A stretch of DNA of 30,291 bases from a virus. Positions 16,808 through 19,445 of this stretch are shown here, piece after piece. Within the stretch, counting starts at the first letter, position 1. Every line of letters begins with the position of its first letter. The notes under the pieces are model-generated. The model did not search any database, had not been told where the DNA came from, and saw only the letters and a program-made list of their open reading frames with translations. The stretch is taken from positions 1 to 30,291 of the IMG/VR virus record IMGVR_UViG_3300046002_001510; one strand, written 5' to 3'. The position numbers and the translations under genes were made by a program.

Positions 16808-17345
16808 CTACGACCGTAACTGTAAAGAATGTAATGCTACTTTTGTGCCTTATAAGACTACGGATAGACTTTGTTATGTTTGCACTAAGACAAAACTTGC
16901 TTTAAAGAACCTCGAAAAGATTAAAAAAGAAAAGGTTAAGAAACAAAAAGAGGATTTACTTACGCTCCAAGATTATTTGAAGTTAGCTCAACAGGTTTTC
17001 AACAAATGGATTAGACTTAGAGACGAAGGATTAGTTTGCATAAGTTGCCAAAAGCCAATGAGGAAAGGAAACATTGATGCGGGTCACTTATGGAGTGCGG
17101 GGGGTCATTCAAACGTGCGATTTAACGAACTAAATGTAAACGCTCAATGCAGTAGACCATGCAACAAAGATAAAGCTGGAGACATTAACAACTATCGTTT
17201 AGGCTTTGTTAAAAGATATTCAGTTGAACAGTTAGATGAACTTGACAAAATAGCAAATATTACCCGTAAATGGACAAAAGACGAATTAAAAAAGCTAATA
17301 GCTGAATATAAACTAAAAATAAAAGAACATGAAAGTAATAATTGA
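16797..17345 (+). CDS. ninG: NinG/Rap-type recombination protein
   Basis: A 182-residue protein with the NinG architecture: an N-terminal zinc finger (Cys9, Cys12, Cys26, Cys29), a Lys-rich helix (33-52), and a C-terminal HNH-like part with CISC (81-84), AGHLWS (95-100), NVNAQCSRPCNKDKAGD (113-129). Lambda Rap/NinG binds branched DNA and cleaves recombination intermediates such as D-loops and Holliday junctions. Start at ATG 16797 rather than an upstream TTG. The ERF and exonuclease genes downstream complete a recombination set. It overlaps the next gene by 17 bases. Confidence 0.88.
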   Translation: MKTNYDRNCKECNATFVPYKTTDRLCYVCTKTKLALKNLEKIKKEKVKKQKEDLLTLQDYLKLAQQVFNKWIRLRDEGLVCISCQKPMRKGNIDAGHLWSAGGHSNVRFNELNVNAQCSRPCNKDKAGDINNYRLGFVKRYSVEQLDELDKIANITRKWTKDELKKLIAEYKLKIKEHESNN

Positions 17346-17529
17346 ATTTGATGACCAAGACGAAGCGATGACAGCATTAAATGCTGTATATTGGAAAAAG
17401 ATAGTTCGTGATTTAGATGAGTATTTAAGACGTAGGATTAAACATTCAGATGAAGATGAAACAGTACGACAAGAAATAAGAGATAGACTACACGAATTGT
17501 TAAGCTATTACAATTTAATTTTAGAATAA
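17329..17529 (+). CDS. small acidic protein, unknown
   Basis: A 66-residue protein starting inside the end of ninG. It has an N-terminal strand (MKVIIEFDD), a helix (EAMTALNAVYWKKIVRDLDEYLR) and a second helix. This is a recurring small phage protein pattern (an IEFDD..EA..A.NA start) of unknown role. It ends the unit before the 17577 promoter. Confidence 0.6.
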   Translation: MKVIIEFDDQDEAMTALNAVYWKKIVRDLDEYLRRRIKHSDEDETVRQEIRDRLHELLSYYNLILE

Positions 17530-17553
17530 ATAAAAAAAAATATTTAAAAAAGT

Positions 17554-17584
17554 ATTGTGCATTAAAATTAATGTATTATATTTG
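17554..17584 (+). promoter_or_regulatory. early promoter with palindromic operator, second copy
   Basis: ATTG (17554-17557), a 19-base spacer, then TATATTTG (17577-17584). The spacer carries CATTAAAATTAATG (17560-17573), arms CATTAA/TTAATG with two central bases. Compared with 10555-10570 the shared core is ATTAAAwTTAAT, in the same position relative to both boxes. Transcription would start near 17592, 20 bases before the ATG at 17613. Confidence 0.75.
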
Positions 17585-17612
17585 TAGAAACAAACAAACA
17601 AAACGAGGAATT

Positions 17613-17831
17613 ATGAATAAAGAAATTTTAAAATTAGTAAGATTTGTTAAGCATGAAAATAATCAAGAATGTACATCGTATTTTGATATAGAATACGAGT
17701 ATAAAGATGAAACATCTTATTTTATTGAAAGCAGATTTTTAAAGTTTACATATAAAAACGAAAATGGTAATATTCCATTAAGCGGAACGTATGATGAATT
17801 AATTAATAAATTTATATCTAATGAAAAGTAA
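17613..17831 (+). CDS. small protein behind the second early promoter
   Basis: A 72-residue protein from ATG 17613 (an upstream ATG at 17571 lies before the promoter start and is not used). Strand-rich: KLVRFVKHENNQE, SYFDIEYEYKDE, FLKFTYKNENGN. The first gene of a new transcript. No family recognised. It overlaps the next gene by eleven bases. Confidence 0.55.
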   Translation: MNKEILKLVRFVKHENNQECTSYFDIEYEYKDETSYFIESRFLKFTYKNENGNIPLSGTYDELINKFISNEK

Positions 17832-18093
17832 GACACAATTACAAAAAGAAAAAATAGATGCTATCTATAACTCTTTAAGATTTACAGGTGTTGACTATGC
17901 CACTTTAAAAAAGTGTTTAGATAATTTCCTACAAGCTGAAAAAAATGTATATCGAACTCATTTTTTAACCTCAAAGCATGATTGTACGGTAAAACAAAAA
18001 ATAAGACATGAGTTAAATTGTGAGGATTTATTTATTAAATCTGAAGTATTGCAATTAGTTATTGACGATTTAAGTAAATACCAAGCTCTTTAA
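17821..18093 (+). CDS. small helical protein, unknown
   Basis: A 90-residue, basic, helical protein (LQKEKIDAIYNSL, YATLKKCLDNFLQAEKNVYRTHF) with several Cys and His residues but no clear zinc pattern. A structured non-coding stretch follows before the ERF gene. Function unknown. Confidence 0.55.
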   Translation: MKSKTQLQKEKIDAIYNSLRFTGVDYATLKKCLDNFLQAEKNVYRTHFLTSKHDCTVKQKIRHELNCEDLFIKSEVLQLVIDDLSKYQAL

Positions 18094-18103
18094 ATCACTA
18101 AAT

Positions 18104-18229
18104 TAGTCAGGTGGCGGAAAGATAAGAGACGCTAATACCTAAGAGTTCCACCTATTTCTCCGTGAGTTGAGAAGCAAAGGTTAAGGATAAATGGAATTCA
18201 TGCAGGGGTAGGTCCTGCCCTGACTACTA
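18104..18229 (+). ncRNA. candidate tRNA-like structured RNA
   Basis: Terminal helix TAGTCAGG (18104-18111) with CCTGACTA (18219-18226), then T-G, a D-arm-like hairpin (GCG 18114-18116 with CGC 18130-18132), and a 5-bp/7-base-loop hairpin (18202-18218) directly joined to the 3' strand, as a T-arm would be. In place of an anticodon arm there is an 8-bp helix (GAGTTCCA 18143-18150 with TGGAATTC 18192-18199, one G-U) holding an inner hairpin (18156-18173). The 'T loop' lacks the TTC signature; its TAGGT (18209-18213) is complementary to ACCTA (18137-18141), giving a pseudoknot. It may be a processed tRNA relative, or a leader of the recombination genes. Confidence 0.55.
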
Positions 18230-18249
18230 ATAATTTAAAACAAATAACG

Positions 18250-18765
18250 ATGAAACATTTATTCAAAGCGATTGCAGACTTTCAACAAGAAGTGCCTGTA
18301 ATTCACAAAGGAACACAAGGGTACGGTTACTCTTATTCAGATTTACCCGCTATTTTCAAAGTGATTAATCCGTTACTACAAAAACACGGTTTAGGATTTA
18401 TTCAATGTATTAATTCACATGATGGTGTAAACTATTTAAACACGGTTATTTTCCATTCAGAAAGTGCTGAAAAGATTGAAAGCAGTACTTTGATTCCAAC
18501 CGTAGCATTAAAAGGCATGAACGATTACCAATCTTTTGGAAGTGGAATAACTTACTACAGACGTTACGCTTTAGCAAGTATGCTCGGATTAGTTACGGAC
18601 AAAGACACTGACGCTTCAGGCGAACAAGTAAAACACGAACCTAAAAAGCAACCTATCAACGATGAGCGTTTTGTAAAAGCATTACAAGCAATCAAAGATG
18701 GTAAAGCTAAGAAAGACGATTTATTAAAATTCGAGTTAACACCCGAACAAAAAGCAATGTTATGA
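18250..18765 (+). CDS. erf: ERF-family single-strand annealing protein
   Basis: A 171-residue protein of the ERF superfamily of phage recombinases, which anneal complementary single strands and help circularise or recombine phage DNA. Family marks are the N-terminal LFKAIADFQQEVP helix, YSYSDLPAIFKVINPLL (about 27-43), HGLGFIQ, and the conserved SFGSGITYYRRYALASMLGL segment (about 98-117). The C-terminal tail after GEQ (about 127) is polar and variable, as usual. It starts in the AACGATG context and overlaps the exonuclease gene by four bases, matching the paired annealing protein/exonuclease arrangement of phage recombination systems. Confidence 0.9.
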   Translation: MKHLFKAIADFQQEVPVIHKGTQGYGYSYSDLPAIFKVINPLLQKHGLGFIQCINSHDGVNYLNTVIFHSESAEKIESSTLIPTVALKGMNDYQSFGSGITYYRRYALASMLGLVTDKDTDASGEQVKHEPKKQPINDERFVKALQAIKDGKAKKDDLLKFELTPEQKAML

Positions 18766-19433
18766 TAGTACGTTGTTCAAGTTTAGGTAAGTTGATGATT
18801 GAGCCTCGTTCAAAAAGCGAGGTTCTAAGTCAGACCGCAAAGAGTTACATCGAAGATTTATTTAATGAATTGGAGTTTGGTTACCGTAAAGAGTTTAGTT
18901 CACGCTACACCGACAAAGGTTTAGAAATGGAGGACGAAGCGATACAGTTTGCAAGTGAGCAGTTCGATTGGGATTTTGTTGTTAAAAACACGGAGCGTTT
19001 TACAAATGATTATATAACAGGCGAACCTGATATAAACACGGATAGCTTATTAGCTGATATTAAGTGTAGTTGGTCTTTAGATACATATCCTATGTTTGAA
19101 GCTGATTTAAAAAACAAGGATTATTATTGGCAGTTGATGGGCTACCTTTGGCTCACGGGTAAGACTCAAGCTGAATTAGTTTATTGCTTAATGAATACAC
19201 CTTTACAAATAGTTGAAGACGAAGTAAGACGTGCGCACTGGAAAGCGGGACTAATTGACGAGGACATTGATTTGAGACACGAAGTGCAAACAAAACACAA
19301 CTACGATAACATACCAAGTAAGCTAAGGGTAAAGCGTTACATCGTTGAACGTGACGAAAAAGCAATAGAAAAGATAATCGAAAAAGTAGAAATAGCAAGA
19401 GAATACTATAATATGTTAAAAGGTTTAATTTAA
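18762..19433 (+). CDS. PD-(D/E)XK exonuclease (YqaJ/lambda exo-like)
   Basis: A 223-residue nuclease. The active-site pattern is visible: an acidic helix GLEMEDEAI (53-61), GEPD (87-90) and ADIKCS (98-103), giving Asp90, Asp99 and Lys101 as the D...DxK triad. This is the lambda exonuclease/YqaJ-type core, which digests duplex DNA to expose single strands for the annealing protein encoded just upstream. The C-terminal half is helical and charged, with a DEKAIEKIIEKV helix. Length is typical. Confidence 0.82.
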   Translation: MIVRCSSLGKLMIEPRSKSEVLSQTAKSYIEDLFNELEFGYRKEFSSRYTDKGLEMEDEAIQFASEQFDWDFVVKNTERFTNDYITGEPDINTDSLLADIKCSWSLDTYPMFEADLKNKDYYWQLMGYLWLTGKTQAELVYCLMNTPLQIVEDEVRRAHWKAGLIDEDIDLRHEVQTKHNYDNIPSKLRVKRYIVERDEKAIEKIIEKVEIAREYYNMLKGLI

Positions 19434-19445
19434 AAACAAATACAA

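Follow-up and report, generated by a model that had tools for sequence, protein, structure and literature searches.

The window, an IMG/VR virus record of 30,291 bases, carries upstream of its erf-like gene an RNA that we read as one of a large phage family of tRNA-scaffolded core RNAs, which would be matured through their tRNA-like frame and whose exchangeable core would probably work in conflict; we put the probability of this reading at roughly 0.7. The tRNA-scaffolded architecture is well supported, and the function is one that we infer. The loci compared with the window are labelled L plus a number.

As the original prediction had described, the window RNA shows an acceptor-like helix, a U-G junction, a D-like hairpin and a T-arm-like hairpin (Table 1). 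Among the features of a tRNA, it has the 7-bp acceptor (18105-18111/18219-18225), U8 (18112), A14 (18118) and A73 (18226), and U-1 (18104) is able to extend the acceptor pairing, the acceptor-like helix then being 18104-18111/18219-18226. The elbow features G18-G19 and UUCRANY are missing (loops GAAAGAUAAGAGA and GGUAGGU), as had been predicted for the T-loop signature, and the T loop belongs to a class with GGYAGNN in place of UUCRANY. A readable 5-bp/7-nt anticodon stem-loop is also missing and in its place are the core helices at 18143-18199, with the long helix and inner hairpin that had been proposed to replace the anticodon arm. The minimum free energy of the RNA was -38.9 kcal/mol (z = -2.54), and 2 of 200 dinucleotide shuffles were as good. 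ARAGORN made no tRNA or tmRNA call for this RNA in the window, and the Rfam search that the original prediction had proposed returned no known family at gathering level and nothing meaningful at E<=10, RF00005 included. The suggested kinship with tmRNA found no backing, because no tag reading frame was found in the RNA and it gave no tmRNA match with Rfam or ARAGORN; moreover, position 3-70 is U-A, and the alanine identity pair G3-U70 of tmRNA is missing. With the window RNA as blastn query, no real match turned up in 50,697 phage records, and an exact 28-nt scan for it across IMG/VR found none.

Table 1. Features of the tRNA-scaffolded RNA and its surroundings in the window
Feature	Position	Strand	Basis or remark
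Promoter-like site, Bacteroidota-type, TTG-N19-TATATTTG	17555..17584	+	sequence; upstream of the block
Block of two small ORFs and the RNA	17602..18231	+	missing at the same site in the closest relatives
Whole tRNA-scaffolded RNA, tRNA positions -1 to 73 (C74 = 18227)	18104..18226	+	fold, alignment, family consensus
Acceptor stem, 5' strand AGUCAGG	18105..18111	+	equals family consensus
U8-G9 junction	18112..18113	+	U8 kept in 19/19 GGYAG-class members
D arm GCG/CGC, loop GAAAGAUAAGAGA	18114..18132	+	loop without the G18-G19 doublet
Exchangeable core	18143..18199	+	4 compensated pairs; recurs on an unrelated scaffold, L174 1690-1825
Core, long helix	18143-18149/18193-18199	+	alignment
Core, second helix	18150-18153/18178-18181	+	alignment
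Core, inner hairpin	18155-18160/18169-18174	+	alignment
T arm GCAGG/CCUGC, 7-base loop GGUAGGU	18202..18218	+	abuts the closing helix; one compensated pair
Acceptor stem, 3' strand CCUGACU, A73 (18226), C74 (18227)	18219..18227	+	family-wide A73, C74
erf-like single-strand annealing protein gene	18250..18765	+	PF04404, E 2.4e-28

Homologues of the window core were found in L358, L372 (with L375 identical), L346 (truncated where the contig stops) and L174. In their alignment 99.2% of the pair cells were standard pairs, and both-sided compensated changes, which the original prediction had named as a check on the structure, occurred at five pairs, two in the long helix, two in the inner hairpin and one in the T stem; the slid controls were all 0, and 2 of 500 shuffles reached five. 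The structure of the window RNA is real. In a separate group of 12 members sharing another core, nine compensated pairs were observed, a value that none of 500 shuffles attained. As to the predicted 5-bp T-loop pseudoknot, 18137-18141 can pair with 18209-18213 in the window, but the pairing between the T loop and ACCUA had zero covariation in the homologue alignment; since it does not vary, apart from a single pair that is broken in L372, it is unproven. An obvious complement for such a pseudoknot is missing in the other members of the GGYAG class.

IMG/VR was scanned with patterns for the frame (at least 120 stretches in each scan), and the compared loci from these scans were examined for elements with a 7-bp acceptor and a T arm. 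At least 366 elements, at least 336 of them unique, passed this test, and as lower bounds the family counts over 280 distinct copies spread across about 200 loci of IMG/VR. They share a frame of the acceptor AGUCAGG/CCUGACU, a D arm, a T arm and A73-C74 that is tRNA(Leu)-like, in agreement with the tRNA-Leu flavour recognized in the original prediction. Among the matches listed, the AGUCAGG acceptor occurs together with U8 in 289 of 336 unique elements, A73 in 280 and C74 in 303 of 309; U-1 is preferred across the family. The elements are 66-180 nt long (median 102, among the matches listed), with a core of about 30-140 nt between the D and T arms. Their placement is intergenic, since just 23 of the 366 elements among the matches listed lie within an ORF of at least 100 aa. 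A Bacteroidota -7 box, TAnnTTTG, is present no more than 25 nt upstream in 23 of 278 copies among the matches listed, clearly above background. The box is enriched in the 20 nt immediately 5' of the RNA, and it stops 4-5 nt short of the RNA at two recurrent sites. Many family members score 30-47 bits with Rfam RF00005; the window RNA has no such score. The highest copy density among the matches listed was 12 in 14 kb, in L282.

Among 85,000 prokaryote genomes the frame pattern was detected in only three stretches, and the sole carrier found among the 50,697 phage records was MW202828, an uncultured spring-water phage, the pattern not being found in cultured phages within that set. MW202828 (L379) is a complete circular uncultured phage genome, and at L379 637-697 a second short tRNA-like element directly follows the first, before a terminator-like hairpin. 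The 'tRNA-Pro' of Tenacibaculum phage pT24 was considered as a member and set aside, since it shares just the T arm and part of the acceptor and is not a clear member. In the same phage (L345, record 191400-192520) a region of about 1 kb that has no annotated ORFs includes four annotated tRNAs, three of them called 'Sup', 'Undet' and 'Undet', as well as more tRNA-like T arms; this region may contain divergent relatives of the family in a cultured phage. Several tRNA-scaffolded RNAs also lie at L341 1034-13958, with seven tRNAs, a tmRNA gene, a GOLLD RNA and a freshwater-1 RNA.

The cores behave as modules. Among the matches listed, the middle parts of 309 unique elements fall into at least 241 unrelated core groups, 202 of them singletons. 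At one site, in seven phages whose flanks are 87-96% identical (250+250 bp), the same constant ends enclose five unrelated cores, and two further swap sites hold two and four cores, respectively. When copies with related cores were compared in pairs, 134 of 162 pairs among the matches listed had no homology in their flanks. The window core itself recurs in L174 on the acceptor GAGAUAG/CUAUCUC, with an ordinary UUCGAAU T loop and a hairpin in the D loop, and a core of L282 recurs in L367 on the scaffold AGCAGAG/CUCUGCU. In a scaffold-blind test, IMG/VR was scanned for 19 letters of the core of the 12-member group, with matches in coding sequence set aside. Among the matches listed, all but one showed an acceptor paired at 7/7, the exception being L387, in which the T arm and the 3' acceptor strand are intact and the 5' strand lies outside the stretch examined. 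The acceptors recovered in this way include AGUGCAG/CUGCACU, AACAGAG/CUCUGUU and AGUCAGA/UCUGACU, and most copies have the AGUCAGG frame, so that the dominance of AGUCAGG is not just a search artefact. Folding of the cores holds for the core groups tested, and the energy signal over all cores, taken in isolation and compared with dinucleotide shuffles, is weak (mean z -0.45 versus -0.22 for random segments, with the same share below -1.5). As to antisense targets, no signal was found, the longest complement of a core to its own locus averaging 9.1 against 8.9 for foreign loci.

These observations bear on several other explanations. Of the roles offered in the original prediction, a processed tRNA decoy or a regulator may apply. 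The frame might itself be the active part and serve as decoy or sponge for a host factor that binds tRNAs, such as a defence nuclease, an aminoacyl-tRNA synthetase or EF-Tu, the core serving as a modifier of size or affinity. LeuRS does not read the anticodon, and the Leu-type D arm with A14 and the A73 would suit such a role, as would the strong conservation of the acceptor letters even among copies picked by their core alone. With this D arm and A73, and a LeuRS indifferent to the anticodon, leucylation of the frame may be possible. Nevertheless, conservation and modularity of the core are unexpected for a decoy and members with quite different acceptors exist, which makes it a rather unlikely account of the family.

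Less likely still is that the frame merely marks RNase P and RNase Z cuts between cistrons while the middle drifts freely. RNase P and RNase Z need the acceptor and the T arm, and it is these that are conserved; the elements are, besides, intergenic and co-directional (568 flanking ORFs on the same strand and 53 on the opposite one, among the matches listed), and the middle sequences are hugely diverse. However, the cores keep their structure through compensatory changes and move intact between different scaffolds, and in some copies about 4-5 nt separate a promoter box from the RNA, so that nothing would be left upstream to cut off. That the elements are decaying or recombinant tRNA pseudogenes from phage tRNA arrays is very improbable, even though ordinary tRNAs occur in 74 of 197 loci among the matches listed, scores with the Rfam tRNA model are weak and some copies have duplicated T arms. 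Against it stand frame letters repeated almost identically around unrelated middles, the covariation in both the window RNA and the 12-member core group, the exchange of cores at fixed sites, and the lack of a tRNA array in the window according to ARAGORN. Conserved cores that travel leave both pure punctuation and pseudogenes short as explanations.

In the window, the recombination region has the gene order NinG, small ORFs, Erf annealing protein, exonuclease and SSB-like protein, and because of this gene order and the TTG-N19-TATATTTG promoter-like site a Bacteroidota host is suggested for the phage. The RNA sits between a small ORF (end 18093) and erf (start 18250). Two small ORFs lie between the promoter and the RNA (17613-18093); they have no relatives in the compared loci and are therefore not a constant partner of the RNA. 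The homology of L006 to the window covers 16837-17601 and then 18232-19434, with the 630-bp block missing between them, and a similar promoter-like site is located directly 5' of erf in L002 and L005-L007. Searching with the window RNA by blastn, we found matches in relatives at other intergenic places, in L085, L086 and L082 (the exonuclease-SSB gap) and in L043, and these copies have a textbook T loop, a Leu-type D arm and an unrelated middle sequence. The leader of erf that was originally suggested, or a cis-acting regulator of it, which would fit an RNA end lying 23 nt before the erf start, is thus scarcely credible, since phages with Erf 94-99% identical lack the RNA at that site, several of them with a promoter directly before erf, and family members stand beside many unrelated genes, e.g. 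between structural genes in L259. Hence, erf is a neighbour of the window RNA and not its fixed partner.

Two classes of elbow can be distinguished in the family. Among the matches listed, the ordinary class has a UUCRANY T loop and the D-loop GG in 236 of 258 members, whereas the GGYAGNN class, which includes the window RNA and keeps A14 in 19/19 members, has the D-loop GG in 1 of 19. The joint loss of the D-loop GG and the T-loop UUC gives a Fisher P of 2e-16, a value to which the shared descent of the class contributes. The D loop and T loop, which touch each other in the tRNA elbow, have changed together, and this points to a different tertiary contact in the elbow of the GGYAG class; in the window, the predicted 5-bp pseudoknot could supply this contact.

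Other departures from the common frame were also observed. L142, L174, L195, L206, L209, L295 and L328 have an extra hairpin in the D loop, e.g. GGTTAGGGGTGTCCCCTGACGTGGTAGACGC, which is a second insertion point besides the core. Elements with two T arms, one of them inside the core (L341 1553-1642, L176 3721-3807 and L296 6877-6966), look like a tRNA nested in another. Leu-like tRNAs with an anticodon-arm-like hairpin and a very long variable arm (L348 4199-4338, L350 7301-7450, L184 5303-5469 and L247 836-991), most of which share GGGTTGACCACAAA or a similar sequence, are possibly another class of tRNA-core fusion.

In the tRNA-scaffolded core RNAs, two short constant segments form the acceptor, D and T arms of a Leu-type tRNA and rebuild its elbow end, and an independent core, folded in the groups tested, replaces the anticodon arm and variable region. 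For RNAs of this build we propose the following mechanism. The frame would let host RNase P, RNase Z and the CCA-adding enzyme trim and protect the RNA, and LeuRS and EF-Tu may also act on it. The core would be the working part and would probably bind a protein or an RNA in phage-host or phage-phage conflict, a role suggested by the allele pattern of the cores; such a role would explain why core diversity at a fixed site is allele-like. The constant ends, of about 25 nt each, could provide short homologies for core swaps by phage annealing recombinases. A wider proposal, which we advance tentatively and at somewhat less than even odds, is that phages of uncultured Bacteroidota use modular RNA effectors to counter host defences or competing phages, with hundreds of unrelated cores on a host-matured tRNA frame swapped like cassettes at fixed sites, and with a subclass (GGYAG T loop, D loop without GG) that would have a different elbow contact.

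The family shares with tRNA-Leu (RF00005) the 7-bp acceptor, U8, G9, A14, the Leu-type D arm GCGGAAUUGGUAGACGC, the 5-bp T arm with its 7-nt loop and A73, and differs from it in having a core of about 30-140 nt instead of an anticodon arm; the window member in addition lacks the UUCRANY T loop, the D-loop GG and an ARAGORN or Rfam call. Like tmRNA (RF00023), these RNAs have a tRNA-like end and a large insert replacing the anticodon arm, but the window RNA is only about 120 nt long with no tag frame found, and the cores are not conserved between members. The stable RNAs C and D of phage T4 (species 1 and 2) are small, are made with tRNAs and have an unknown function; by description they resemble the present RNAs as small stable phage RNAs made with tRNAs, but each is a single RNA and not one of many with exchangeable cores. 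GOLLD and ROOL are phage-encoded structured RNAs of hundreds of nucleotides that form RNA nanocages (PMC12286853). They, too, are often near tRNA islands, but have no tRNA frame around an exchangeable core. The same architecture is that of engineered tRNA scaffolds, in which a foreign RNA replaces the anticodon arm for recombinant RNA expression in E. coli (PMC3753655). The proposed benefit, processing and stability, is also the same; those scaffolds are man-made, whereas the phage family is natural, abundant and under phage evolution. A literature search of partial coverage (few subscription journals, no bioRxiv) returned no description of such an RNA family, which is thus apparently undescribed, a statement that concerns its architecture and evolution, not its function.

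If the proposed reading is true, nature invented the tRNA scaffold of biotechnologists, and phages carry on it a library of structured RNAs that can be swapped, from which many new functional RNAs could be drawn. It would also explain why many tRNA calls in phage genomes are 'undetermined' or odd, and it would offer a natural experiment on the rebuilding of the tRNA elbow. For the phages themselves, the family would represent a new kind of accessory gene, one made of RNA.
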